DNA from: Ceratodon purpureus
Taxonomy: Eukaryota > Streptophyta > Bryopsida > Pseudoditrichales > Ditrichaceae
Assembly (NCBI GenBank): GCA_014871385.1
Contig: CM026427.1
Location: 2,414,068 to 2,478,067, forward strand
Reading direction: 5' to 3'
Length of the DNA: 64,000 nt
The translations under genes and the position numbers were made by a program. The notes beneath the pieces are model-generated. The model saw only the letters and a list, made by a program, of their open reading frames with translations. It was not told the DNA's origin and searched no databases. Positions 4,638-27,272 of this stretch are shown in pieces; position 1 is the stretch's first letter; every line of letters begins with the position of its first letter.

Positions 4638-5312
4638 GATTATGCGGTGGTCTATAGGCCATCACAAATCATTGACGCTTACAATACCCAAGCAAATTCA
4701 TGTTAAAATGTGAATTTTTTGATAATACGCACACAATATTTAAAAAATCTATAATGTACCAAAATATCTTTGCACTGACTATCAGGAGTAGTATTTTGTT
4801 CAAATTTTATATTTCAAAAATAATTATAAACAACTTTATAATGTATATTGTATGAAGATATTCAAAGCATGTAATAATTAAAAGATGTTGCTAAAAGATA
4901 CATTTCATATGATTGAAGAATTTTAAATCACATACAAATAACCTTCAAACAATAAAAAAAAAATTGTCTATTCTAAAAGACACATAAATTAGATTTTGTA
5001 CAAGATTTTTGTGGAAATTGCTTTTGATCCACAATTTAATGGATAGGTAGACATTTTGTTTATGATATATTTTTTTTGATAAAATAAAATTCTTTTATAT
5101 TTTTATATTTATTAAATTAAAAATAAAGTATACATATAGTATAATCTAAATTACTTGAAAGCTATGATTACATTCTTAATGCAAAATTACTCTAAAGACT
5201 AGATGTATGAGTATATTTTTCAATCATAAAATTATAACGGTTTATAAAAATTCAATGTATTAGCATTGTAGGCCTCAATGATTTGCGGTGGCAGATAGTT
5301 TGCCGCATAATT
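4638..5312. mobile_element. MITE with long imperfect inverted arms
   Basis: The ends are inverted copies of about 47 bp. Both arms share, in order, ATTATGCGG, AAATCATTGA and TACAAT, separated by diverged bases at equal spacing. The 675-bp interior is AT-rich and non-coding. I could not define a target duplication, so the superfamily is open. Confidence 0.6.
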
Positions 5313-7795: not shown

Positions 7796-8785
7796 AACTA
7801 ATAAAAATGAGTCTAATTGATTGAATTTAAATCTATAAGTAAAAATTGCTATTACATGGTTAATGGAATTCTTTAAAAATATTATTTCGTTTTGATCTAA
7901 AATATATATGTATACTAATATATCAATTCATGGAAATTCAATATTTTTGTCTCACCTACTTAATTCTATTAAAAATTTGTCAAACATTTTGCTACTCAAG
8001 GGTTATTGAACCTCTTTTTAACCCCTAAAGTTCTGAGGGTATTTTTCATCAAAACTGCCTCAAAACAGCCCCTCTTCAAAGCAAGGTGGATTTTGCAAAC
8101 TTGGGGTCTTTTTTAGAACATCTAACCGTAAGACCTTGTAGCTAACTTCTATGTCTACATGTCCACCAAATCTCACACACTTATTCTTCACCGATTGCAA
8201 GATCATAACGTTCAAAGTTTAAAAACAAGTTTTTTTTCCCTGCAAAAAAAGGGGACAGCAAAGTTTTGAAGGCCCAAAAAACCATTTTTTGCATTATGGA
8301 TTTTGGTGGTTTTGATGCAAGTCAAAGAAGACTGAGTTAGCTAATTGTACTAAGAAAATTATATTCAGAAAAGTTGTGGAAAGTTGCCCAAAAAAATCAT
8401 TTTCCGCTAGGGGGTATACTGAAATTCTCAAACAAAGGTTGTTTTTGGACAATAAAAATAGCATATGAAAAAACTTTGGATTAAAAATCCGAACGGTGGG
8501 AACATGCTTTACTGCCTTCTCTATACATAGAAATTTTTATTTTTGAAAAATATCAAAATCTCAATTTTTGGTGGAATTTCAAAGTTTCGTCTTTGGGCAG
8601 ATTTGGGCAGTTTTGGGCAGTTTTGGGCAGAATTTGCTGCATTCACAGTGGCTTAGAAAAATTCAGCAGCTGCCCAACGAGCAGCGTTTGACACTTAAGC
8701 CTTCATAACTTTTGATTCCGATGTTGGAATTGAAAAATAAAAATACCCACACGAAGACATCCAAACGGCCCACCTTCAATAAAAA

Positions 8786-8797
8786 TTTCAGAAAATC
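8786..8797. repeat. LINE target-site duplication, left copy
   Basis: TTTCAGAAAATC, repeated exactly at 22686-22697. It is present once (49688-49699) in the empty sibling MITE. Confidence 0.92.
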
Positions 8798-10977
8798 GGT
8801 ATCATGTAAATGGAGCACTGGAGAATCCTCAGCACGCGAGTCTGGAGCTTTTGAGCTCCGACTAATCCGATTACATGGACTCTGGGACTTAGCCTAAATT
8901 CCTAGCTATGGCGTCTCCGCCTCCTCCCCGCTGCTCCCTCCCTGCAACCTGCACTCTCCATCTCGCTGTGCTCCTCTGCCTCGCAAGCCTCCTCTACTCC
9001 CCCCGTCATGCTTGCCCCTCCAGCCTTCTGGCCCTCCATCCGCCTGCTCCAACAGCTTCCTCCAGCCGCCATGCTGCGCCGCACGCTGCTACAGCCCTGC
9101 CCTTCTTCGACATTCCGTCTCGCCCCAAGGTGTCTCCTCCACGTCCCGCCGCGCCCCTTCGTTGCTCCACCACCCTGCTCTTCCCCGACGACCGCACCCC
9201 TGCGCCAGCACCACCTCCTCGGTGGCCTCCCCTCCGGCATCGTCCCTGGTCCCTCCCCCACGCTGCGGCCAAGCTAAGGACTGAGCACCGATGGCGCATT
9301 CTGCCCTTCAATCAGGCCTCCGACGCCATACCCCGGGCTCCTCCCCGCTTCCCCATCCCCCACGTTCCTGCCACCCCCTCCCCCCACTTACACCTCCATT
9401 GCTCCTTCTCTACACATTTCCTCTCTCTGCACCCCCCCTTACCCTCCCCCAAACTCCACACACCTTTCGCACTCACCTGTTCTACCTTGTCACCTCTTTC
9501 TCACCCCTCCCCTCCCTTCTCCTACCACCTTCCACTTCCCCACCCCACCCCCCCCCCCCCACACACAACCGTTCCCTGAACCAACCTCTCCTTCCCCCTT
9601 TGCCCCCCTCCAATCTCCTGCACTTTTACACGCACCCCTCGCATTTCCTCCTCTCCTTTCCTGCCCCGCTCCCCCCTGACTCAGCGCACTCCTACACATC
9701 ATTCCCCCATCCTTTCCCCCCACCTTCACACCTTCCACCTTGCCCCCCAGTCTCTTTCCTCTCCATCCCGATTTTGTCCCCCACCACCCCCACAATCTCC
9801 TCCCATGCATCCCACCAATCTTTCTTAAAATTCTCCAACTCTTTCCCTCACCTCCCCACCTTCCCCCTGGCCCCTCATCCCACTGTATCAACCGCATTTC
9901 ACACTTCTTCACATCATTCCTTTTCGCATTTTTTCCACAAATTTCCACACCATTTTGTTGTCTTACGAACTCACCTTGCCACCACTTTTAAAACTCTTAC
10001 CACCAATCCATTCATTTTTCATGAATCAACTCAACCCCCCCAACCATTTTTTAAAATTCGTACAACTTCTCACACACCTCCCCCTGTTCCACCATATCTC
10101 CCACCCCACTGTTTTCGCAATTTCTTGCCCTTCCTCCTACACATCACTTCCGCATCACTTCAGTATTCGCACATGCCATTTCGCTTTCTCGCATACACAA
10201 TTTTTCCCTGCTCCCCACCATTTCTCATGTCCGACACTGCCTCGCCACCCCGTACCCCTTTACTTCCCGACCAACTCCTTCCGCCCCCCGCCCCCCCCCC
10301 CCCCCCCCCCCCTCCCCAGATTTCTCATCCCCCGCTCTCCCACCCTCATCCCCCATCATCCCCCACCCCGCATCTCCCCCCTGTCCCCCTCACCCCCGGA
10401 TCCCTCTCTGCCCCATACCCCCTTCTCCCCCAAAACTCCCCCCCCCCTAATTTCCCGCTTCCACTCTCAGTCTCCCCCCAACCTTCACCCCTCCCACCGC
10501 CCAAATCCCGCACAATCCCACCTCACTCCCAGTCTGGTCCTCACCCCTCCCTGTCCATCTCCCCTTGGCCCCCCCCCCTCACCGTTGGCACACCAGTCCC
10601 CGCTCCTTCCTCCCCTCCTTCACTGCTCACCTCACCGCCCCCATCCCCACTCACCCCCAGCCCTCCACTCTTCCCCCCTCCCGCTCCTCCCGCACCCTCT
10701 CCCACCACCCCCACCCCCCCTTGCCTCCCCCCGCCACCGCAACTCCCAGTCCCCCTCCCCCCACCGCTCACCCCCCCTGCCCCTTGTACGTCCCCCCCCC
10801 CGCAACTTCCATCCCTCGCACCCCTGTAAATACCGCACCCCCCCCCTCACATTCCCTCTTTCACCAAGGTACATTCCTCATCACCCCCACCCCCCCTCTC
10901 TTCACCCCTCTCCCCCTTTATCTGCATTAACACTTACTTGCTCCTTGTTCACAGCTCGGCCCCCGCCTCACCATGAC
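8798..10977 (+). other. LINE 5' leader, strongly pyrimidine-rich
   Basis: After about 500 bp of mixed sequence, the plus strand becomes almost pure C and T from roughly 9310 to 10930, with a run of 22 C at 10291-10312. All three forward frames are open for long stretches because stop codons need A or G. The Pro/Ser/His/Leu-rich 512- and 223-codon frames here are therefore probably not genes. The leader may hold the internal promoter that an autonomous LINE needs, but no motif was recognised. Confidence 0.7.
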
Positions 10978-13047
10978 ATGGCGCGCGTAAAGTCAGTCGT
11001 TCGTCGCATTTCCGCCTCCCAGGACTCCCAGCTTCCCTCCCGCACTCACAAGCGATTTGCCAAGCGTTCGAGCAGCAAGGCTGCCAGCCTCGACCTCCCC
11101 GGCCCCTCTACATCCCCTATGGCAGGCCCATCTACCTTCCCCATGGACCCCGAACCCGGTGGCCCCATTGGCATCCGCGATTGGCCGGAAGGATGCAATC
11201 CTACCCCGGCCACCAACCCAGATACCCAATCTACTCCCACGACTCGCTCCCGCCGCCGCCGCCGTCTTCTTCAGGAAGATTCTGAGAGCGAAGGCTCGCA
11301 GGCTGCCCACACTTCCCAACACTCCATCTCCTACACCACCCCTCCCTCCCATCACTCCACCCCTCCCTCTCTCGCCCACTCCAATCCTCCCCCCCTCGCC
11401 CTGGCTCCTTCTCCTCATACTGCTCCAACCGTACCTGCTGCCCAACCACCTGCGCCAGATCCCACCCCCGCTCAGGCCCACACCCATACGGTAACACCTC
11501 CTAACTACTCCCATTTTGTCTCCCACCTCTGGCTGTCATTTTCTGTGCATGAACACCTCAACTCCCAAATGGGCGTACCTGAATTTGCAACCACCGAGGC
11601 CGCCGGTCTGAACCTCTCCCACATGCCTGATTCGGAAGTTCAAGAATTTTATTCTTGTCGACACGCCTTCCCTCACGTACCGCAGCAACTCTTCCCTGCA
11701 TCCAGACCCGATCAACTACCAGGTCAATTCTATCACCTAACTCAAATTCCTTTTGGTATCCAAATTGATCCCTCTACTGGCCTCTCACATACTCACCAGA
11801 TTGTTATACGTTTCGACCATGGCTATCATGAGATGAACAAGCAAGATGTCCAGGCTGCCGCCCTCGCCCGCTTCGAATCTATGGGAATCGCCCTCGCCAA
11901 CCGCTTCCGGGAGCCTGTCTCCGCCCTCATCCATCCCCAGACGAAACACTGGCTGGGCTTCCTCAAAGTCGACCTCCTGAATCCCACCATCGACGGCCTA
12001 GCTCTCTTACAGGGTACCCGACTCTTCACCCTTCAATTACAGGACCTTACTTACGTTGTTGGCAAAGTCGAAAAGGGATTCGACTTTCCCTCCACTGCAG
12101 CAAACCGACGCCTCCACCTCCAAAGCCCCATCCTCGCCCGATATTCTTCCCGACAGCTGCTTGGCGAACTCACCCGTCACGGCTACCTTGCTGGGGCGAA
12201 CCTCGAGTTCATTGGGGTTTCAAAGCGCACCAAGGAATTGGAAACGGCCGACATCACCGTAGCCTCTGAGGCTACCAAAACCTACCTCCTTTCAACTCCC
12301 ATCATCTTCGATGGACATCGCCTTCTCATCTCCTCCACTTCTACTGATCACACCGCCCACCCCAATGCTCCCGAAGCCCTGTCTACCTCCATCCTCGTAC
12401 GCGGCCTCCCCGTGGAGTACTCACAGCTCCAGATTACCACGGCCCTCCACAAGCTGCTTGCCCCGAAGAATGTCCTCTCTGTTACCTACAACAGAGCTGA
12501 AGGCGATGTTATGGGTCGACATGATGGAATTGCAACCATCCGCTGTCTCAACGCCGCAGTCTATACACATTGGTGTCACCGTAAGGGTGTTCCATGCCTA
12601 GGAAAATTAATAGACTTCCTCCCTCACACTAAGAGCCTCGCTGGTAGCCACCCCCCCGCTGCAGCACGCGCCCATGACCACAAACCTACCCGTGAAGTCA
12701 TTGAAGAAGCCCTTACCGCACTGAAGAACGAATCCCCGCCCATCCCCCAGCTCTCGCAGATTGAAGCTTCCATCCAAGCCGCGGAAGGCCGCATCCGCTC
12801 CCACCTCAGCACTCTCGGTGGCGACATCAACCTGCATACCACACAGCGCCTTGAATCAGCCACAGCCCAAACCCTTGCTCAACAGCAGACACACCACAAC
12901 GACCTACGCCACCAACTTCAGATGCTTACCTCGGCTTCACGGGCATATAGTGACAACATGAGCGGCATCTTCACGGCATTGAACTCTGGGCCAGCCGAGG
13001 GCCCCCTCTCAACCCCTTCCTTCTCCGCCATACCCCCCCCTCCATGA
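10978..13047 (+). CDS. LINE ORF1 protein (RRM-like, coiled coil)
   Basis: A 689-residue frame starting MARVKSVVRR. This ATG was chosen because composition changes from C/T-only to normal coding sequence just before it; the upstream in-frame extension is low-complexity. The N-terminal 200 residues are basic and Pro/Ser/Thr-rich, with an RSRRRRR patch near residue 90. A globular middle follows. Residues about 470-555 read as an RRM-like fold (SILVRGLP, then GIATIRCLN). Residues 575-670 are rich in Ala, Gln and Leu with heptad-like spacing, suggesting a coiled coil. By analogy with other LINE ORF1 proteins it should bind element RNA and act as a chaperone. The stop overlaps the next ATG (ATGA at 13044-13047). 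Confidence 0.8.
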   Translation: MARVKSVVRRISASQDSQLPSRTHKRFAKRSSSKAASLDLPGPSTSPMAGPSTFPMDPEPGGPIGIRDWPEGCNPTPATNPDTQSTPTTRSRRRRRLLQEDSESEGSQAAHTSQHSISYTTPPSHHSTPPSLAHSNPPPLALAPSPHTAPTVPAAQPPAPDPTPAQAHTHTVTPPNYSHFVSHLWLSFSVHEHLNSQMGVPEFATTEAAGLNLSHMPDSEVQEFYSCRHAFPHVPQQLFPASRPDQLPGQFYHLTQIPFGIQIDPSTGLSHTHQIVIRFDHGYHEMNKQDVQAAALARFESMGIALANRFREPVSALIHPQTKHWLGFLKVDLLNPTIDGLALLQGTRLFTLQLQDLTYVVGKVEKGFDFPSTAANRRLHLQSPILARYSSRQLLGELTRHGYLAGANLEFIGVSKRTKELETADITVASEATKTYLLSTPIIFDGHRLLISSTSTDHTAHPNAPEALSTSILVRGLPVEYSQLQITTALHKLLAPKNVLSVTYNRAEGDVMGRHDGIATIRCLNAAVYTHWCHRKGVPCLGKLIDFLPHTKSLAGSHPPAAARAHDHKPTREVIEEALTALKNESPPIPQLSQIEASIQAAEGRIRSHLSTLGGDINLHTTQRLESATAQTLAQQQTHHNDLRHQLQMLTSASRAYSDNMSGIFTALNSGPAEGPLSTPSFSAIPPPP

Positions 13048-14886
13048 TGAGTCTCCTTCGATATCTCTCCTTCCTGCTCCTTCTTCCCTTGCATCTCTTT
13101 CTGCACAATGTCACTCATGTTCCCGGCTTGAGTACGGTGTCTGTCACACACCCACTCCCTCTGTGCTCTCTATTATCTAATAAAACGACGTTTTTTGCTT
13201 CCTCCCACACTATGTCTCCATTTTCTCTCAACCCACCCCTCCCACTCTCTCTACCTCATCCCACAACACCTCCGCGTACACACAACCCCCCCCTACCGAG
13301 TCCCCCTCTCCCACTCCCTGCAACAAACCCTGGCCCCGCCCACGTACCTGCCCTCCTCCCTATCCCGCCGCAGCATCTCCTCCTTGCAGCCCCTTCCCCC
13401 TTGCCCTCGCGATTCACCTCTGTTCCTCCTCTCCCTGCTCCGTGCCCATCCCACCCGCCGCCCCCACCCTCCCACCCACAAATTTGCCATTACCTCCGAT
13501 CCCCCACTCTGAAACTCACATGTCCGCTCCTCTCTCCCTCCCCTCACCTCAACCCCCAACATCTTCAGCGCCCACTTCCCTTCCCCGCCCCCCACACCCA
13601 GCCTGACTACCCTCCCTCACCCAAGCCCCACCTTCTCCCCCCCTTCCCCCATATTTCCCCTCCCCCAAAACTCCAATTCCAACCTACTTGCCCCCTCTCC
13701 CCTCTCTCACATAATTCCCCGCCTACTCCCTACGCTCCCGACACCTCACCTCGCCTGAATACAACATTCCAGACAGCCCACCCCTTTCCCCCGCCCCCAC
13801 ACAATTCCCCCCCTACCCAATCCCACACTTCCCCACACCCACGCCCTCAATTCAAGCCGGATTGCCCCACCCCAAACAAACATCCGACACCCTCCTCTCC
13901 TCCCCTATCCCTCTTCGACTCAATAAACTTACCTCTTCCATGGCCACCGACATCAGCGATCACCTCCCAACTCTCTCCTTCCTCCCATCACTTTGCACTT
14001 TACTCCCGTCGACCCCATCCTTCACCAGCCCCGCTCCCCCTCCTCCTCGTCCTCCTGTCTCGGCCGCAATCTCCTCCTCCCCATCTGCCCGTTCCTCCCT
14101 CGACCCCTCTCTTCTCCCCCCGCTCCATCTCCATTCCGCCACTCTCCCCCCCATTTTCTCTCAACTTCCCCGCATCTCCACCTACATCCCCATTCTCCTC
14201 CGCCCCCCACAAATCCCCCCCCCTGCTAACGCTCCTCTACAACCACCACCCCAGCCTACATCTCTGTCCCCGCCACCCCCCGCTACCGACCTCGCCCAAA
14301 CCCCACTCCTCCCCGACACCACCACCTTCCTTCCCAGCCCCCCCTCGACACCCGCCCTCTAATACCCGGACTACCCCAAACCCCATATACCCCCATACCC
14401 ACACCTGCCTTCCACCCGGCCCCTGTCTTCCTACCCGCCCCCCGCCGACCCCCGGCCACGGCCGTTATACCCGGCCCCTCCTCTTCCACCCGATCATCAC
14501 CTCCTCCCCCCCTCACTCCCCCAGAACCCTCCCCCCACTCCTCCCCTCCATCTTTCTCTACTTCCTGTCCCCCACTCCCACCTCCCCCCACTCTTCTCCC
14601 CATCCCTCCCTCATCATCCTCCCCCCCACACCAACCCCCCCTCTCTCTCCCCTTGCCAACTCCCTCCCTCTCCTCCTCATCTTTTTCCCACCCTCTCCAC
14701 CCCCCTTGCCCCCCCTCTTGTCCCTCCTTTCAACATTTTCTCCCCCTCCCTACGGCCTCGGCCTACCGGCCTCGCCACAACTCTCTCCTTCTACCCCCTC
14801 CCCCTCCCTCACTCTCTCCTTTCCTCCCCCTCCCTCACTCTCTCCTTTCCTCCCCCTCTCATACTCCACTTCCACCCCAACCTTAA
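13048..14886 (+). other. LINE inter-ORF pyrimidine-rich spacer
   Basis: Almost only C and T on the plus strand. A 698-codon frame (13044-15140) begins at the ATGA overlap with ORF1, but it is Pro/Ser/Leu/His low-complexity, and rival frames of similar composition overlap it. I do not call it a gene. If translated, it is positioned to reach the RT frame by a +1 shift within 14887-15140. Confidence 0.6.
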
Positions 14887-17800
14887 CTAGTTCCTCCCTT
14901 CCCCTACCCTCCCTCCTCACCACCCCTCACCCTCCCCCATCTTCTCCACGGCCCTCCCCCCCTCCCCCAAGGTTCCTCTTCTCCCTTCCCACCCCTCCTC
15001 CATCCTTCTCACCCCTCCCTCTCTCCCTCCCTTCACCCCACCATCCGGCTTACCACAAAACACCGTGGACTCGGCCTCTCGGCCTCGTCCAAAACACACT
15101 ACTCCATCTCCCCACACCCCCCCCCTCTTCCTTTGACTGACTTCCCTCACCCCAATGCACCTCCCTCTCGTACCTGCTCCTACCTCCCCCCGCCCCCTCC
15201 TCCCCCTCCTCCTCCTCCTCCATCTTCCCGTTTCCGTGCTCTCCCCCCTCCCCAACCTCTTCTCTTCCCTCCCTTCTATTCCATCCACATCACTTTTTTC
15301 ACTTATTCTCATACACACAAACGCCGCCCAAAACTCCGCACCTTCCGCCTTTATATCACCCACTGCCCCTTACTCCTCCTCCTTAGTGGAGACATTGAAA
15401 CTAACCCCGGGCCAATGCCCAACATTCTTCGAACACACCCCCCTCTACACCGAAAACGCGCTCGAACTTACTTTATCCCCAGTACAATCAAGTTTCAACC
15501 AGAATATCAATACCTTGCTAGCTCCTTCTCCCCATTGTTTTCTCCTAACCATCCCCTCCACCTCCAAACCATCACCACATTTCCCCACCTCCATCAATAT
15601 ACTCAAACTCAACCACATTCTCCCCCCTCCCATCTCATCTATGCCTTTGTTGTCTCTATCAGTCCATCCATCCTCATTTGCAATGCCACCTTTGCCCAAC
15701 CCCTCACCCACCACTTCAACGACATCTGGACCACCACCATCCTCATCCGCCTTTCCGCCCTCCGCAACCCTCCCGAACGCCACATCCACACCGCCCACCC
15801 CTACACCAAGTTCCTTGTTGACCACCATGACCTTGTCCACCCCAAAAACACCATTCACACAGAACTTTATAACTACATACACCGCCACCCCACTCCCCCA
15901 ACACTCACCGACCTCCAGAGACAATTCCCTTTCCTACCTCCACACCTCCTCACCGAATCTCTCCGCTGCTTTGAACCCCTTCCTGAATACTCCCACCCCC
16001 CTCCCCTTCCGCCCATCCTTGCTCCACAACCACGCCCTCCTACCTCCATCACCCACGCCACAAACATCATCACTTGGAACGCCTCCTCACTAAATACGGC
16101 TCTCCCAAACCTCCATCGCCTCTTAGCCGACACCCCTCACAACACCGCCATCATCCACATTCAAGAAACCAAACTTACTGCCACCAAATCCACGAAATAC
16201 ATCCAAAACTTATTCCCTGACTACAAACTTATTTTCAATAACACCCATGCACTTACAAGATGCATCCAACAACGCATGCCCTATACCCCTGGACGAGGAG
16301 GACTCCTTACCCTAATTCACAACAAATACGCCTTTCCGGGCAATATCACTAAACTCCCCACCCCGGCTAACATTTCTCCTTACCTCCAGATTATCCGCAT
16401 CCACAACAGCCCCCTTCAACCCTGGCTCCTCATACACATGTATATGCCGACACACATCGAAGACGTTCGCCTCCTCCCTCACATCCAAACAGCCATTACC
16501 AACCACATCGCATCCCACCCCAATCACACCTACACCTTATGTGGTGACTTCAACCGTGACATAGCCTTACTTGGGCACCAAAACCACCACACCAACACCC
16601 CTCCCCAAGACGAGGACCACCTCTGGAAACGCTTTACTGACTCTCTCAATTTCCAATACATCCCCACTAACACCACCTTCTCCAGACAAGGGGGCTACAA
16701 CTACACCTCTACCAGTTTAATTGACGGCTTCTACATCAAATCACCCGACCACTCCCGTTACTCCTCCACCACCTCCACCCACCTCAATCTTAACTCAGAC
16801 CACTACCCTGTCACCCTCCACATTCCTCACAATACCCTCTTAGCCCGTCCTTCACCCCCCGCTACCACTCCTCAAATCCGTATTTTGAACCCCATTCCCC
16901 CAACAAACCTTGAAAGATTTAACATCGAATTCTTTGAAGGCAACTCCCTCCAAATCAATGCACTCATCCACCTTCTCGAAACCCACGACCACCTTACCCC
17001 CGCCCAATGGACAACTACTTGCGAATCCTTTGACCATCTTGTTGACAACATTTCTGCGACCATCGAAAACACCTGTCAAGCCCCTCCCCTCCCCAATCTC
17101 ACCACTCGAACCACACAACAAGGGGGTTTTCTCCCCCGCAAACTAGCCCGTGACTGGCACAAACACCTTGATACCTATCATCTCATTCGTAAAGCTATTT
17201 ATATTGCCAAAAATGACCCCAATTGGCACACCCACCCCATCATGACTGCCATCCATAACCACCGTCATGTACAAATCCCACCACCCCCGCTCACACACTC
17301 TATCCCCAACGCTTGGATTAATACCATTGCTCCTATTGCAAAACTAGCCAACAAAAACGCCCGCAAAATCACCACCAAATACACCACCGCCTGTATCCAC
17401 AAAGCCATCTCCAAATATCGCCAACTCTACGACAAAAGCCCCAAGAAAATTAATCGCAAAGTCTTCCAACACTCTGAACCCTCACCCCTCGATTCCATCC
17501 TTGACAGACAGAACCATATCCTCACTAGCCCTGAGGATATCGCACGTGAAATACACATCCAACAATCCCTCAGCAACCGCCCCGTTGTCCCCTCGTGCCA
17601 CAGCCCTGCCTCCCATCCACCCCTTTGCACATGCCTCGTTCGCCAATATCCCTGGCATGACCTCGAGGGCTTTACAATCGACTCGCGGGGTGATCCTCAC
17701 ACCCCCCTTCACACCTACTTTGATCAAGAAACATATGACCTTTGCCTTAAAAACCTGGGAAATAACAAAGCCCCCGGCCCCGATAGAATCCCCAACTCCA

Positions 17801-20547
17801 TTCTCAAAAACATGCCCCCTCGTTTTCACAAACTCCTCTTTTTACTCTTCAAACACTGCTACAAACAAAATCAAATCCCCACCTCTTGGAAAACTAGCCT
17901 CACAGTCTTACTCTACAAGAAAGGTAACCCATCACAACTCCCCAACCATCGACCCATCGCCCTAGCAAACACCATCTACAAACTTTTTACCAGTACCCTC
18001 ACCTCTCTTCTCTCAGCATATGGAGAAAGGAACCAAATTCTCCATGACAGCCAAGAAGGTTTCCAAGCAGAACGCGGCACCTCCCGCCAACTCCAACTCC
18101 TCATTGCTGCCCTCGAAGACGCCCGTTTTACAAACCAAGACATCTACATCCTCTATATCGACTTCAAAAATGCTTTCGGTTCCATCGATCACGCCCGACT
18201 CTTAGCAGTTATGAAGGACCTTGGATATCCGACCGATGCCATCCACCTTATTGGCAACATCTACTCTCAATCCACAACTATCTTCTCCGGCGAACACTTT
18301 GGGAAAACCGAACCTATCCCAATCCTCCGAGGCACAATCCAAGGAGACACCCTCAGCCCTTACCTCTTTATTGTCTTCCTTGAACCCCTCCTTCGATGGC
18401 TCCAACAAGGTGACAATGGTTATACCTTCGGCACATCCAAAGTCACAATTTCCTCCGCCGCATACGCTGATGACTTAGCTGCAATGGCCAACAAACTAGC
18501 ATCACTACAAACTCAACTCAACAAACTAGATAAATTTTGTGAATGGGCCGGCATGGACCTAGGAATTCCCAAATGTGCAGTCACCGGCTCCCCAAACAAA
18601 TCCAAACTAAATCCCCTCGCATTCAAAGCCCAACTACTGGCAACTAATATCAACTTCCGTAACCAATCAATCCCCGTCCTCGACCAACATGAGCCATACA
18701 CATACCTCGGCATCAACCTTGCCCCCTCACTAAAATGGAAAACTCAAATTAATACTACCACTGCCAAAGTCATCAAACAATGTCAGGCCCTGACTGCCTC
18801 CCCCGCCTCTCTGCGCCAAAAAATTAATATGTTAGACACGGTCATCCGTGCCGGCATTGCTTATAGTTTCTATGCCGTACCCTACTCTATCCCAGCTATC
18901 AAAAAACTGGACAAAAAACTCATCGCTCTCCATAAAACAATCTATGGCCTCCCCAAATGCACATCCAACATCTTCACTCAACTCCCCCACAACCTCTTCG
19001 GACTCGAAGCCTTCTCCCTTCAAAATGCTTACTTAAGATGTATTGGCGAACAACTACAAAACGCCCTCAATGACAAAGGTCGACTTGGTAAAATCTATTT
19101 TGGTCTCGTCCAGCATATCCTAGCCAAATTTGGTGGCTCTGAAGAAATTCCCCATATCAAAACTCACCATTGTATCCGCTCTCCCATTACCCGAACGCTT
19201 TACCTCCTCAAACATCACGCCGGTGTCCACCTCAAAAGTACACTGCACTCCTTCCTCCTACACTCCTCCCCCCTTGAAACTGCATGGCTAGCTGCAGCAC
19301 CAACCCTCCATCGACTTAATCCCGCCTTATCACACAAATTTCTCCATAAACTCCTTGCTCACAATATCACCACACTCGACCAACTCACCCTCCCCAACGG
19401 CACCACCCTTATGTCTCCCCAGGACTTTCAAAGATACCACTCCACTCCCTCCAAACTCATCGTTAGCGCCTTACACATTGCCCAACAACTATTTTGTCAC
19501 CCCCCTTGCCAGCCCACTTGCCCTCACCCTTGCCCCTACCATCACCTCCCCAACACTCTCAAAGACCCTTACATCCTCCCTGACCATCACATCTCACCCC
19601 CCCAACCCGCCCCCCCCATACACCCCCCACCACCCCGCATCCCACTCCAGCCCCCACCCCCTCCTAATTTCCTCCGTAACCTTCACACTTTCCCAATCCA
19701 TACCATCCTCGCTCATCACCATCGCAAATACACGGCATCCCATGGAATTACAAGACAAGACACAGCATATCTATGCCAATGGCTTGCCCCACCTCACACC
19801 ACTTACCACAAATGGCTTACACACCGCACTCTTTTCCCTTGGAACAATGCCACAATCTGCTCTCATAACACTGACATCCTTTCCCAATATTATACAAAAC
19901 AACAACACATCCATTTCTCTAATATCCTCAAAGCCTCTTTTTCCACCACCCAACCACGTGACACTCGCTTTGTTACACCCGCCACAACCCTCCCATTAGT
20001 CCATGTATCTATCAACGACTGCAATCCCGACAATGACATTGAAACCGACACCCCTACCATCCAAACACAATTTGATGTTGCACACCTATACGAAGACACC
20101 GGCCGCCACCTCATCACAATCCCCCTCCCCAGACTCCAATGGCTCTGGCACCAATATCACCTCGCCAAACACACCCCACACGGCCTTGAACCTCCTACCC
20201 AATCCTTCGAAACAGAACTTGTCTGGTTATACCAACGATACAAGTATCGTATCCCCAAAAATGACCCCCTTCAAGGTGCTCAATTCACAATACCACCCCC
20301 TATCCTCGACTCCCTCATCACAACATTTGACATCACTAAATCATACTTCTCCTCCCCCGTTACATGCCCTGTCCAACTCACTCAATTTTACTCCCCTTTC
20401 TCCAGAGATAAAATTTTTGGCTCCCTTGGCACAGCATTTGACCATAAATGGACCGGAATTGGATACGCACACCCTCACACCGCTACAGACCTCCAACAAA
20501 CCATCCACTGGCCCGACTTGCAGCCAAACTCGACTCCAATAACGTAA
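14887..20547 (+). CDS. LINE ORF2: 2A - AP endonuclease - reverse transcriptase
   Basis: The frame is open from 14887, with no ATG before 15415. A 2A motif ends directly before that ATG. Numbered from the ATG (1710 residues), the AP-type endonuclease spans about 217-470: ITWNASSL, QETKL, MYMP, CGDFNRD (377), LIDGFYI and SDHYPV (461). The reverse transcriptase spans about 780-1060: NKAPGPDRIP (783), NHRPIAL, GFQAERGTSRQ, YIDFKNAFGSID, GTIQGDTLSPYLF and the catalytic YADD (1017). All key acidic residues are present. A His/Cys-rich patch (CHPPCQPTCPHPCPYHH) lies near 1360. The product should nick target DNA and prime cDNA synthesis. The frame is intact over more than 1700 codons, consistent with recent activity. 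Confidence 0.92.
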   Translation, partial: LVPPFPYPPSSPPLTLPHLLHGPPPLPQGSSSPFPPLLHPSHPSLSPSLHPTIRLTTKHRGLGLSASSKTHYSISPHPPPLPLTDFPHPNAPPSRTCSYLPPPPPPPPPPPPSSRFRALPPPQPLLFPPFYSIHITFFTYSHTHKRRPKLRTFRLYITHCPLLLLLSGDIETNPGPMPNILRTHPPLHRKRARTYFIPSTIKFQPEYQYLASSFSPLFSPNHPLHLQTITTFPHLHQYTQTQPHSPPSHLIYAFVVSISPSILICNATFAQPLTHHFNDIWTTTILIRLSALRNPPERHIHTAHPYTKFLVDHHDLVHPKNTIHTELYNYIHRHPTPPTLTDLQRQFPFLPPHLLTESLRCFEPLPEYSHPPPLPPILAPQPRPPTSITHATNIITWNASSLNTALPNLHRLLADTPHNTAIIHIQETKLTATKSTKYIQNLFPDYKLIFNNTHALTRCIQQRMPYTPGRGGLLTLIHNKYAFPGNITKLPTPANISPYLQIIRIHNSPLQPWLLIHMYMPTHIEDVRLLPHIQTAITNHIASHPNHTYTLCGDFNRDIALLGHQNHHTNTPPQDEDHLWKRFTDSLNFQYIPTNTTFSRQGGYNYTSTSLIDGFYIKSPDHSRYSSTTSTHLNLNSDHYPVTLHIPHNTLLARPSPPATTPQIRILNPIPPTNLERFNIEFFEGNSLQINALIHLLETHDHLTPAQWTTTCESFDHLVDNISATIENTCQAPPLPNLTTRTTQQGGFLPRKLARDWHKHLDTYHLIRKAIYIAKNDPNWHTHPIMTAIHNHRHVQIPPPPLTHSIPNAWINTIAPIAKLANKNARKITTKYTTACIHKAISKYRQLYDKSPKKINRKVFQHSEPSPLDSILDRQNHILTSPEDIAREIHIQQSLSNRPVVPSCHSPASHPPLCTCLVRQYPWHDLEGFTIDSRGDPHTPLHTYFDQETYDLCLKNLGNNKAPGPDRIPNSILKNMPPRFHKLLFLLFKHCYKQNQIPTSWKTSLTVLLYKKGNPSQLPNHRPIALANTIYKLFTSTLTSLLSAYGERNQILHDSQEGFQAERGTSRQLQLLIAALEDARFTNQDIYILYIDFKNAFGSIDHARLLAVMKDLGYPTDAIHLIGNIYSQSTTIFSGEHFGKTEPIPILRGTIQGDTLSPYLFIVFLEPLLRWLQQGDNGYTFGTSKVTISSAAYADDLAAMANKLASLQTQLNKLDKFCEWAGMDLGIPKCAVTGSPNKSKLNPLAFKAQLLATNINFRNQSIPVLDQHEPYTYLGINLAPSLKWKTQINTTTAKVIKQCQALTASPASLRQKINMLDTVIRAGIAYSFYAVPYSIPAIKKLDKKLIALHKTIYGLPKCTSNIFTQLPHNLFGLEAFSLQNAYLRCIGEQLQNALNDKGRLGKIYFGLVQHILAKFGGSEEIPHIKTHHCIRSPITRTLYLLKHHAGVHLKSTLHSFLLHSSPLETAWLAAAPTLHRLNPALSHKFLHKLLAHNITTLDQLTLPNGTTLMSPQDFQRYHSTPSKLIVSALHIAQQLFCHPPCQPTCPHPCPYHHLPNTLKDPYILPDHHISPPQPAPPIHPPPPRIPLQPPPPPNFLRNLHTFPIHTILAHHHRKYTASHGITRQDTAYLCQWLAPPHTTYHKWLTHRTLFPWNNATICSHNTDILSQYYTKQQHIHFSNILKASFSTTQPRDTRFVTPATTLPLVHVSINDCNPDNDIETDTPTIQTQFDVAHLYEDTGRHLITIPLPRLQWLWHQYHLAKHTPHGLEPPTQSFETELVWLYQRYKYRIPKNDPLQGAQFTIPPPILDSLITTFDITKSYFSSPVTCPVQLTQFYSPFSRDKIFGSLGTAFDHKWTGIGYAHPHTATDLQQTIHWPDLQPNSTPIT
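15361..15414 (+). other. 2A ribosome-skipping motif
   Basis: The frame reads HCPLLLLLSGDIETNPGP and is followed by MPN. It matches the canonical DxExNPG|P core with a hydrophobic upstream stretch, as in class-1 2A sequences. Separation would fall between the Gly at 15409-15411 and the Pro at 15412-15414. 2A motifs are known near the N terminus of some non-LTR retrotransposons (for example trypanosome L1Tc and sea urchin elements). For 2A to act, translation must begin upstream of it, where this frame has no AUG. Confidence 0.88.
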
Positions 20548-22439
20548 CCATCATTGCCTCCCCCGACCCTAATTGGTACCAAAATTTCCAACCTTACACT
20601 GGCCCCTTCCCAGACACACACATTGTTGCCCTCTTTGCCGCCGACACCATTACTTATGACGAACCTACCATCCCTCCGGATCTGAAACTCGACCGCAAAG
20701 AACTCTCTACACTTCGCATCCTCTGCGTACATCACCAACTCTCCCCCCTCGGCTCAGCTGCCTCCCTGCTCCAACTAAACCACATAGCCACTACCCTCCG
20801 AATTCCACAACCCCACACCGCAATTGCCCCCTCTACCCCTCCTCATACCTCCGTCAATCCCAGCAAACGTTGGTCTAAACTGCAACTCCCACACATCCCT
20901 CCGTATCACCATTCCTTCCCCCCCCCGCTCCCCCCTTACTGCACAAACCTCCCCTTGAAATTCCACCCTCAATTTAGTTACTACACCGATGGCTCCTTTC
21001 TACCCCCTAAAGAACTTGGTAATGGTGAATGGCTTAGGGAATCCGCAGGATATGGCATTTACAGTCCTAAAGGCCTCCACATCTCTGAAAGACTACCTGG
21101 CCATCAAACTATACTTCGTGCCGAAATGCTGGCCGTCCACAAAACACTGCAAATTCTTAACACACAATTCCCCAACGAACCCGCTTACATATTTACGGAC
21201 TGTCTCAATGTCCTATACTTACTAAACACCCAAATCAAACACCCTACCTTACACAATAGCCACCCGGACCAAGTCACACTCGCCTCCATGGTCACACTTC
21301 TACAACAACGCACACAACCAATTACACTCTACAAAGTCCGTGCCCATGTTGACATTTCCGGCAACGAAGAAGCCGACAAATTAGCTAAACAAGGCACACT
21401 CCAAGAACATAAACATGCCGAACACGCCTATGAACATGCCCATGCCACCCCATACTATTTTCAAAAAGATTATTGGCCCTCCATGATCTCCGTCCCAGAC
21501 AAAGGCCCTGTCCGTGTCCTCGAAAAACAAATCACCAATTATGACAGAGAAAACAACTTAGAACTCCTCGCCATACAAACACCCAACATTTGCAAATGGA
21601 CAGGAAATGCAGACATTGACAATGAGCTCTCCAACGATTTTTGGAATAACCCTGCTATTACGGATAAACAAAAATCATGCCTCATCAAATTCCGCACCGG
21701 TACCTACATGGGCCAGGCCCGCAAACAACTCTTCTTTGGACGGGAACGATTTCCCTCCATCACATGCCCCATTTGCAACTCTCCTCATCCTGATACATGG
21801 CTACATGTTCTACTCACATGCAACCAACAACACCTCCACGCCCTTCGAGTCAAACGCCACAATAAAGCAGTCTGGGAACTCAGAAAACTCCTAGTTTCCT
21901 CTGAAAAATCCCGTAGCTTTATTCGCATGAATGCTGGCACCTTCAATGACTCCCCTCCGGAGAACACTGTTCCTAACTGGCTACTACCCTGCACATGTGG
22001 CACACAACGCTGCCACTGCAACTCCCGATTTCGTCCCGATATACTCTGCGTCAAAGGATTACCATACCAAAGCGACCCTCCTTCAGAAATTGACCCCAAT
22101 CTCACCATCCAATTCATCGAATTCACTTATTGCAACGACCGCTTCTCACCAGACACACTCGCCGCTAAAATCAACAAATACAATCAATTAATTGCCAGCA
22201 TTACTGCCCAAGGCTGGAAAGTCGACCCTCTTATAGTCATCACAGCTGGCGCCCGCGCTACCACACACATCCCCTCCATGAAACTCCTTGAAACTAGCTT
22301 TCAAATCCCCATGCCTACTATCCGAACTACTTTCAAAACCATTAACACCATTGCCACCCACTACGCCATGTCCATCCTCCTCCACAAACGCCGCCTTGAA
22401 AACCACCAACCCCTCCCTGAACACTTCGACCCTCCATAA
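20448..22439 (+). CDS. LINE RNase H - CCHC - candidate restriction-like endonuclease
   Basis: A 663-codon frame overlapping the end of the RT frame by 100 bp in the -1 phase. RNase H lies at about residues 177-315: YTDGS (D181), AEMLAV, FTDCLN and HVDISGNEEAD (H300), which supplies the usual D-E-D-D/H set. A CCHC knuckle follows, CPICNSPHPDTWLHVLLTC (from 440). Next come RPD at 529-531 and IEF with E558, then a conserved-looking KINKYNQLI helix. CCHC followed by (R/K)PD...(D/E) is the layout of the R2-type restriction-like endonuclease, although 26 residues between D and E is longer than in R2. Translation may use a -1 frameshift or reinitiation at 20448. Alternatively, one indel has split an originally continuous frame. 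Confidence 0.82.
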   Translation: MDRNWIRTPSHRYRPPTNHPLARLAAKLDSNNVTIIASPDPNWYQNFQPYTGPFPDTHIVALFAADTITYDEPTIPPDLKLDRKELSTLRILCVHHQLSPLGSAASLLQLNHIATTLRIPQPHTAIAPSTPPHTSVNPSKRWSKLQLPHIPPYHHSFPPPLPPYCTNLPLKFHPQFSYYTDGSFLPPKELGNGEWLRESAGYGIYSPKGLHISERLPGHQTILRAEMLAVHKTLQILNTQFPNEPAYIFTDCLNVLYLLNTQIKHPTLHNSHPDQVTLASMVTLLQQRTQPITLYKVRAHVDISGNEEADKLAKQGTLQEHKHAEHAYEHAHATPYYFQKDYWPSMISVPDKGPVRVLEKQITNYDRENNLELLAIQTPNICKWTGNADIDNELSNDFWNNPAITDKQKSCLIKFRTGTYMGQARKQLFFGRERFPSITCPICNSPHPDTWLHVLLTCNQQHLHALRVKRHNKAVWELRKLLVSSEKSRSFIRMNAGTFNDSPPENTVPNWLLPCTCGTQRCHCNSRFRPDILCVKGLPYQSDPPSEIDPNLTIQFIEFTYCNDRFSPDTLAAKINKYNQLIASITAQGWKVDPLIVITAGARATTHIPSMKLLETSFQIPMPTIRTTFKTINTIATHYAMSILLHKRRLENHQPLPEHFDPP

Positions 22440-22685
22440 CCCAAGCCCTTCCCTCCTCCTCCACCACACCTTCTCCCCTCTGCACCTCCTCCCCTTCAGT
22501 CACATTCCCCGCGCCATTCACCCTTGTTTATCGTTTCTGGTTACCGGTTACTAAAGTGTTTACTCTCGAAAGGGGGGAGTAGATCTTTACTTCCATACCT
22601 TTGTCCTGTGGGCATTGGATTGGGGGTGGATCGAACAGACACTTCACTCACGTCGGTCCCCTTCGGGGACCGATGTTTCTCTCTC
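22440..22685 (+). other. LINE 3' UTR with SINE-shared tail
   Basis: About 246 bp. From about 22615 to the end it aligns with the 3' tails of the SINEs at 35322-35650 and 167-535. It ends in a hairpin followed by GTTTCTCTC, with no poly(A). Confidence 0.85.
22651..22675 (+). promoter_or_regulatory. 3'-terminal hairpin, probable RT recognition element
   Basis: CGTCGGTCCCC, loop TTC, GGGGACCGATG: an 11-bp stem with one G-U pair, ending 10 nt before the LINE terminus. Stringent-type LINEs (such as UnaL2) use such a 3' stem-loop to recruit the reverse transcriptase. The same position in both SINE tails also folds, with different bases. Confidence 0.75.
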
Positions 22686-22697
22686 TTTCAGAAAATC
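22686..22697. repeat. LINE target-site duplication, right copy
   Basis: TTTCAGAAAATC, identical to 8786-8797. Confidence 0.92.
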
Positions 22698-22776
22698 CTG
22701 ATATAAATTGCATTCATATGTACATGACCAAATTCCAAAAAAGCCCAAATGTGGCAGATTGTCCATTAGGGGTTAA

Positions 22777-23399
22777 ACAAACAATTTTTCTAACTAAAAG
22801 ACATAATAATTTTTAAAGTACCATGAATAAAAATCTAAGGTGAAAAGAACACACAAATTTATTCTCATTTAAAAACTTTACTCCATCCAATCCACCAAAC
22901 CTCCTCAAATAACACTCCCTGTAAATCCCACCTCATGTCAAAAATGGCAAAAGAGTACAAGTGGGACTCTGTGGGAGCACTGCAAGCCGTTGGTAGAGAA
23001 CAAAAAGGCGCAGAAGGGAATGAACCCACACGACCACGAACAGAAATATCTGCCGAGTTCCCACTTCGACCAAATAACTCGACTCACAAAGCCTGCTCAA
23101 CCCAACCCAACGCAGTGAGTGGGGCACGAGCCAATGGGAACGGAACCAACCGGGATTAGGGTTCGCAGTGCAGGGTCGCTTTACCTTTGAGAACGAGGCT
23201 TTACAGGCCCCGCCGTTGCCACGGCTCAGGGCTCTCGCGCTACCACACCAAACCCTGGATCATCGCCTCTCTCGCTCGCACAAACCCCCCTCGCATGGTG
23301 TGCTTCGCCTCTGCGGACTCGCCTGTGGACCTCCACTTCCCCTGCTCTACGTGCTCGGGCCTTCATCGATTGCGCTCGCGGGCCATGGGCGCCGCCGAC
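22777..23399. other. Intergenic, upstream of helicase gene
   Basis: The AT-rich left half gives way to GC-richer sequence from about 23100, probably the promoter region of the helicase. No convincing TATA box or ORF was identified. Confidence 0.4.
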
Positions 23400-23528
23400 A
23401 CTTGCACAGGTTCCGTCTCTGCTTTTTCTTTTCCATTGCCCGACTCTAACCTTAACCCTGTCGGGGGATATTCCTCGCAGGCGCAGGCGCATTCGTCGTC
23501 CGTTTGAAACTTCCTGTCCTCGTTACAG

Positions 23529-23823: not shown

Positions 23824-23973
23824 GAAGACGAGATCAGAGGTTAGGTTTGAGGAGGTTGGGAGACGTTGAAGAGGAATAGCGATTGTTTCGCGTGGTGCAA
23901 AGTAGGGTGTAGGGTGATACCAGGAGGGGCAGCCGTTGCGTGAGAAGAGTAAGAGCGGGTGTTTGATAGAGAT

Positions 23974-27272
<3,299 letters not shown>

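Follow-up and report, generated by a model that had tools for sequence, protein, structure and literature searches.

How do ribosomes reach a coding frame that seems to have no start codon? This question is raised by a retrotransposon in Ceratodon purpureus. The stretch of 64,000 nucleotides analysed here (the window) contains an almost full-length LINE of the APE type. It has two cistrons, ORF1 and ORF2, and the endonuclease and reverse transcriptase (EN-RT) part of ORF2 is headed by LLLLLSGDIETNPGP at 15370-15414 of the forward strand, directly followed by ATG 15415 as the first in-frame Met. In a preliminary description of the locus this peptide had been recognized as a 2A (StopGo) ribosome-skipping motif, which agrees with our analysis, and given a true 2A in front of EN-RT its claim that ribosomes must enter upstream of the motif would hold as well. 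The 2A/RT frame itself opens after the stop at 14884-14886, continues to 20547 and has no ATG before 15415; it had been taken as AUG-less, and near-cognate initiation, a +1 shift from the overlapping frame or internal entry had been proposed as ways into it. Both 2A peptides in LINEs and the stop/start coupling of LINE cistrons are already known, each on its own, from the accessible parts of PMC5972666 and PMC11512398. Here we describe how the 2A frame is reached in the window and in the relatives of the element.

Results and Discussion

The element, all features of which lie on the forward strand, would extend from about 8798 to 22685 as bracketed by the 12-nt candidate target-site duplication TTTCAGAAAATC (8786..8797 and 22686..22697), which is the longest exact match between the flanks, the next independent best having 9 nt. 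ORF1 (10971..13047, stop TGA at 13045-13047) is assigned as ORF1-type by position and homology only; 23 homologues with an identity of up to 75% were found and no Pfam domain was matched in it. Its stop overlaps the ORF2 start in the sequence ATGATGA (13044..13050), where the ATGs at 13044 and 13047 lie over TGA 13045, and the AUG frame beginning there encodes an ORF2 leader of 698 codons (13044..15140) that is hydrophobic at residues 2-20 and closes at the TGA 15138-15140. The part of ORF2 after the predicted skip (15412..20547) starts with the N-terminal block PMPNIL... and contains in frame the endonuclease (16426-16812, PF14529), the RT (17926-18720, PF00078) and the start of a PCIF1-like domain (ORF2 residues 1768-1856, 20188-20454, PF12237), while the rest of ORF2 lies in another frame (20448..22439) and includes an RNase H (20976-21395, PF00075). 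An APE-like endonuclease and an RT are thus present in one protein, as in an APE-type LINE, and the RT matches the solved structures of R2 and of LINE-1 ORF2. At 20448-20547, inside the PCIF1-like stretch, the window copy has a second frameshift, in a region where the relatives P0007 and P0010 are in one frame.

Several further observations concern the element and its surroundings. The PCIF1-like domain sits between RT and RNase H, and when nine relatives were combined into a profile, this matched the solved structure of PCIF1 with an E value of 1.6e-9. PCIF1 is a cap m6A methyltransferase with the catalytic motif NPPF, which is not kept in the domain of the window. Close to the 3' end of the element a UUCG hairpin (22650..22676) is part of a very stable structure at 22560-22690 (z -5.03), which may correspond to the 3' end recognised by the RT of the element. 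The exon at 23953-24837 adjoining the element presumably belongs to a DDX3-like RNA helicase, probably one of plant type. A search of 8500-23500 against Rfam at E up to 1 gave no match, no relatives were confirmed by tblastn in IMG/VR and GTDB contigs, and the exact motif did not occur in IMG/VR.

The core DIETNPGP (15391-15414) agrees with the 2A consensus (D/G/C/N)(V/I)ExNPGP, and the preceding LLLLSG gives the L-rich context with G at p11 when p12 is D; the predicted skip lies between Gly 15409-15411 and Pro 15412-15414. In all six frames of the 64 kb this is the sole occurrence of D-x-E-x-NPGP, and under a dinucleotide model D[VI]ExNPGP is expected only 1e-5 times in the element and 9e-5 times in the window. 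A second, bare NPGP is found at 13326 in the AUG frame of the leader and is possibly the relic of an upstream 2A.

In order to follow the motif through the family, relatives were pooled from a search with ORF2 (30 proteins) and a search with an alignment of seven 2A-bearing ones (29, partly the same). The two lists comprise 52 distinct proteins, and 29 extend as far as the block downstream of the 2A (M[PL][ND]); in five cases the sequence starts only with the Met of this block and therefore misses the upstream part, and the other 24 read through the 2A. NPGP is kept in 23 of these 24, the exception being P0068 with NPDP, and a variant with H at p14 (GDIHPNPGP) is present among the relatives. 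In subgroup B (the window and four others) the mean pairwise identity is 0.08 at -80 to -16, 0.39 at -15..-6 and 1.0 in GDIETNPGP, and subgroup C (n=3) behaves likewise with 0.08 to 0.15, then 0.57, then 1.0. The corresponding values of subgroup A (n=16) are 0.42, 0.55 and 0.76, with 0.86 in GDIxx. The 2A is thus conserved as a unit, with identity dropping sharply upstream of it in B and C and less so in A, where it stands out less sharply because the upstream part is also conserved. In a midpoint-rooted tree of 27 rows, from which three short ones were excluded, the window does not fall within subgroup A, which has 20 rows, and the branches of B and of P0009/P0011 lie deeper, so that the 2A is present in each subgroup.

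The preliminary description had suggested a search of the genome copies for the motif, and it was not lost there: the host genome (362 Mb) contains 69 sites coding for exact DIETNPGP, dispersed over 13 contigs as expected for a LINE, against 0 for the reversed pattern, a count that covers this exact spelling only. Fetched loci gave 35 readings, or 29 distinct sites after subtraction of six second readings. G precedes D in 25 of the distinct sites, and the 2A proline is followed by Met in 28; among the relatives Met follows in 23 of 23 main sites. Judged from these sequences the 2A is a constant feature of the LINE family, and DIETNPGP is a true, conserved 2A for which skipping activity is predicted.

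Tandem 2As were also seen, as P0009, P0011 and P0074 each have a second NPGP site upstream. These three extra upstream 2As are without a following Met. The block after the 2A looks duplicated along with it in the tandem cases, and decayed upstream 2As were noticed by eye in P0072 and in the sibling L028.

In the window the frame from ATGATG 13044 has 0 stops in 695 codons (13050-15137), compared to 6 and 7 in the other frames; when this region was shuffled, the AUG frame was open in 0 of 1000 cases and any frame in 2 of 1000. No other 19-mer of the spacer, whichever frame is read, is as hydrophobic as residues 2-20 right after the AUG, although their hydropathy was reached in 70 of 1000 residue shuffles, and over the window leader as a whole no codon-position bias was found (210 of 1000 shuffles reach the observed value). 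Four relatives, each a single predicted protein up to the 2A, have the mutually similar starts MISK, MNSK, MISK and MVSG, and in P0009, P0011, P0067 and P0075 one frame runs from a start of the stop-overlap type or a similar Met to the 2A. With a profile of the N-termini of the four relatives, 13044 was absent from the best eight of 961 ATG peptides.

We then compared siblings from the same genome, namely twenty 9-kb stretches plus the window, with ORF1 being found in 16 and not in five. The 16 include four A-rich copies (L015, L017, L023, L025), one fused copy (L026) and two (L012, L018) whose ORF1 reading frame breaks before its end and which are outside the overlap count. In all nine assessable copies of the window's type (the window, L009, L010, L013, L014, L016, L022, L027 and L028) there is an AUG at -1, -5 or -8 that overlaps the ORF1 stop, for example at -5 in L010, where the stop is TAG at 5305. 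The ORF2 AUG over the ORF1 stop is the arrangement of a stop/start coupled LINE, which is not seen in most A-rich copies. As the nine copies are homologous, these overlaps are not nine independent events.

The clearest case is L022, in which MISKLVAE starts at -8 and an uninterrupted stretch of 853 codons leads to the 2A. The two other frames contain 31 and 21 stops there compared to 0 in this one, which is open in 0 of 500 shuffles; a stop follows 539 codons after the 2A. L022 is the only window-type copy uninterrupted from the stop-overlapping AUG to the 2A. The AUG frame is also the 2A frame in L027 (1 stop against 29 and 20), L009 (3 against 6 and 5) and L010 (3 against 9 and 4), and it differs from the 2A frame in L013, L014, L016, L028 and the window. 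Altogether the AUG frame has the fewest stops in six of the nine copies, with a tie in L016 and not so in L014 and L028. By eye from the residues after the 2A, L022, L027 and L028 belong to another subgroup than the window, and among the 11 C-rich copies nearer to the window none is uninterrupted from AUG to 2A, stops or shifts being present. The claim that no AUG lies upstream is therefore correct for the window frame at 14887-15414, but with AUGAUG at 13044, L022 and the four relatives with a single frame up to the 2A it does not describe a design of this element type.

The 11 C-rich siblings were further used to examine where the AUG and 2A frames of the window separate. Four of them (L009, L010, L013, L016) can be aligned to the window across 15101-15133 and L014 only to 15124. 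Up to 15101-15116 (over 50 to 114 columns) the AUG frame of the window matches the 2A frame of the sibling in all four alignments, and after the switch the 2A frame of the window matches it, again in all four and short indels aside, the phase being settled from 15133 (L009, L013), 15150 (L016) or 15166 (L010). Further upstream only L009 and L013 can be aligned, and the phase there varies between indels. The four siblings bear stops or shifts of their own, so the result concerns the switch and not an intact neighbour. A programmed frameshift would have its shift site conserved among copies and the switch is shared by 0 of the 4 alignable siblings; it is best explained as a copy-specific frameshift mutation at 15101-15133. 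As this switch separates the AUG frame from the 2A frame, the latter only looks AUG-less, an appearance that is best read as the decay of one copy.

The A-rich sister subfamily shows another picture at the ORF1 stop. Ten A-rich 2A sites were examined, not counting L015 and L024, which are A-rich as well. In L029 an AUG lies 19 nt before the ORF1 UAG and 496 codons lead to the 2A with 0 stops, compared to 35 and 24, the frame being open in 0 of 500 shuffles. In L025 the 2A frame contains neither stops (0, compared to 36 and 50 in the other frames) nor an AUG ahead of the 2A, the ORF1 end of this copy being shifted itself. In L031 and L033 the -1 frame opens 22 and 13 nt ahead of the ORF1 UAG, respectively, and the first AUG comes at +26 and +653; the remaining copies among the ten are more decayed. 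No classical slippery heptamer was seen by eye in the A-rich copies examined. The data from L025, L031 and L033 are the strongest result against a single AUG-based entry rule. The expectation of an AUG-less upstream frame in genome copies is contradicted by L022, which runs from an AUG, and finds some agreement in L025 and L033, whose 2A frames are clean and have no AUG nearby. Entry into the 2A/ORF2 frame without AUG in this subfamily, via recoding or non-AUG reinitiation at the ORF1 stop, is a tentative reading that we consider rather unlikely. If true, the family would keep the 2A constant and vary the access of the ribosome, by AUG overlap, AUG-less entry or fusion to ORF1 as in L026.

In this last copy (L026, G000:C3:7153543-7162543) a single reading frame without interruption covers ORF1, the leader, the 2A and ORF2. 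It is at least 1954 codons long, with 1287 codons before the 2A and at least 667 from the 2A on. In L026 the 2A would separate ORF1 from ORF2; the fusion is known from one copy, and its ORF1 end is unlike that of the others.

How do other explanations of the window compare with reinitiation at the ORF1 stop followed by a copy-specific break? A 2A frame that is truly AUG-less, with ribosomes arriving at near-cognate start codons or through an IRES within the pyrimidine-rich spacer, would fit the missing ATG at 14887-15414 as well as L025 and L033. The composition of 14887-15360 (54% C, 6% G) makes the open frame at 14887-15414 weak evidence, though: at 14887-15390 it is open in 224 of 1000 dinucleotide shuffles and thus not above chance. 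A search for nine near-cognate codons in 14887-15360 found only five ATC and one TTG, with no conservation to test, and in L022 and L029 no stop lies between an AUG at the end of ORF1 and the 2A. We regard this explanation as improbable. As a break at this position is not common to the four siblings, neither near-cognate starts nor internal entry nor a programmed +1 shift is needed. Near-cognate starts in 14887-15360 were rejected. For the shift, the preliminary description had named the right overlapping frame, and the tract C9 at 15117-15125 lies inside the switch interval with the stop of the AUG frame just downstream. Ribosomal or transcriptional slippage on this tract could join both frames, but the four siblings do without a switch there, L022 and database relatives are in one frame, and the same copy carries the further frameshift in the PCIF1-like stretch. 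Programmed slippage on C9 was therefore rejected as siblings have no shift there, and its probability is very low.

Leaky scanning or a downstream promoter could also allow EN-RT to start at Met 15415, in which case the 2A would be a relic. The almost regular Met after the 2A proline would agree with this and may serve as a second start. Against it, NPGP is invariant in subgroups B and C while the sequence further upstream varies, which is sensible only if the 2A is translated, and the extra upstream 2As do without such a Met; this explanation, too, we judge to be highly improbable. A chance resemblance without function has a practically negligible probability given the low expected number in the element and the presence of the 2A in each subgroup of the tree, and it is refuted by the conservation.

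Upstream of the 2A we found a hairpin motif, CTCGGCCTACCGGCCTCG or a variant (up to two changes, loop bases free), in 30 copies from 19 of 27 loci, a count given without a shuffled control. It occurs in A-rich and C-rich leaders alike. Both copies of the window fold, namely copy 1 at 14754..14776 with the core CTCGGCCTACCGGCCTCG (z -2.46) and copy 2 at 15066..15091, TGGAC-TC-GGCC-TCTC-GGCC-TC-GTCCA (z -3.30). Covariation of the hairpin is weak (27 distinct of 30 copies). In the relatives its translation resembles SAYRPRHK in 21 copies (in 15) and RPTGLATT in 6 copies (in 3), and a third-frame reading was not found among them; the latter was seen by eye in L022 and L028, which read it as GLGLPASSK. 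Compatibility with SAYRPRHK in a shifted frame was found for 3 of 4236 8-mers from eight leaders, all of them motif copies of P0012, and a residue-by-residue comparison in this two-frame test showed no compatibility for the motif copies of P0064 and P0072. Since different copies read the motif in all three frames, selection seems to act on the nucleotide sequence, and the near-invariant hairpin is likely a cis-acting RNA element.

The mechanism that we propose, with reinitiation at the ORF1 stop, a long leader, release of EN-RT by the 2A and a copy-specific break in the window, is in our view quite probable. Ribosomes would translate ORF1, terminate at its stop codon and restart at the overlapping AUG (ATGATGA, 13044), where ORF2 starts. 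The first product of ORF2 would be a long leader of low complexity, which has signal-like hydrophobic segments in some members; the ribosome would then skip the Gly-Pro bond at the 2A and free the leader, and from the Pro onward an EN-RT-(PCIF1-like)-RNase H protein without leader would be made. Directly supporting this are the conservation of the 2A, the stop/start overlap and the stop-free frame between AUG and 2A in L022, from which we infer reinitiation and skipping. A 19-mer with a mean hydropathy of at least 1.5 is present in six of the 13 leaders examined and absent from the other seven; in five of the six the maximum is uncommon among residue shuffles (no more than 35 of 1000), and that of P0074 is ordinary (484 of 1000). 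By analogy with the sea-urchin 2A signal sequences (PMC4981915), the purpose of the 2A may be to keep the enzyme off a membrane-bound leader. A processing protease had been suspected by eye in distant relatives and was discarded, having no Pfam support in three proteins.

L1Tc of Trypanosoma cruzi and other 2A-bearing non-LTR retrotransposons, ascribed to Heras 2006 and Odon 2013, reportedly have a 2A in frame with APE-type LINE proteins. Going by the titles of this work, the element described here resembles them in this respect, but differs in that its 2A follows a leader of several hundred residues opened at the ORF1 stop and occurs in tandem copies in some relatives. In the part of PMC12846837 available, LLLLSG-like hexapeptides are one motif group among viral StopGo sequences, a related motif 6 is active in vitro and the variant with H at p14 has more than 95% activity. 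LLLLSG with DIExNPGP and the p14 = H variant are thus shared, here by a retrotransposon and not by a virus. SART1 and other LINEs have stop/start coupled ORF1 and ORF2 according to the sections of PMC5972666 at hand, and the ORF2 start lies over the ORF1 stop in both systems; compared to UAAUG in SART1 there is AUGA/AUGAUGA or an AUG at -5/-8 here, together with a downstream 2A, and the coupling is putative. In sea-urchin NLR proteins, as far as the accessible text of PMC4981915 goes, the 2A itself is a short N-terminal signal sequence. A 2A beside a signal-like hydrophobic sequence would in both cases split the products between membrane and cytosol, but here the hydrophobic segments are located within the long leader.

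Conclusion

In summary, the single parts of this system are of known kinds, and their combination, the tandem 2As and the near-invariant upstream hairpin appear to be new to us. Searches of the open literature on 2A with non-LTR elements, partly from green algae or streptophytes, gave no account of the combination, most subscription papers being outside the scope of this search. The family would be an example of StopGo being used naturally, and in many copies, by a plant lineage, compared to plant viruses, in which the survey of PMC12846837 found almost no StopGo. Its members are also natural variants in the way ribosomes get into ORF2, from an AUG over the stop, possibly without an AUG, or by fusion, with the 2A kept constant, and the hairpin ahead of the 2A, being near-invariant, suggests a cis-acting RNA element that has gone unrecognised. 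The family also allows a test of the reason for which a LINE would release its EN-RT from a leader that has membrane-like segments in some members.
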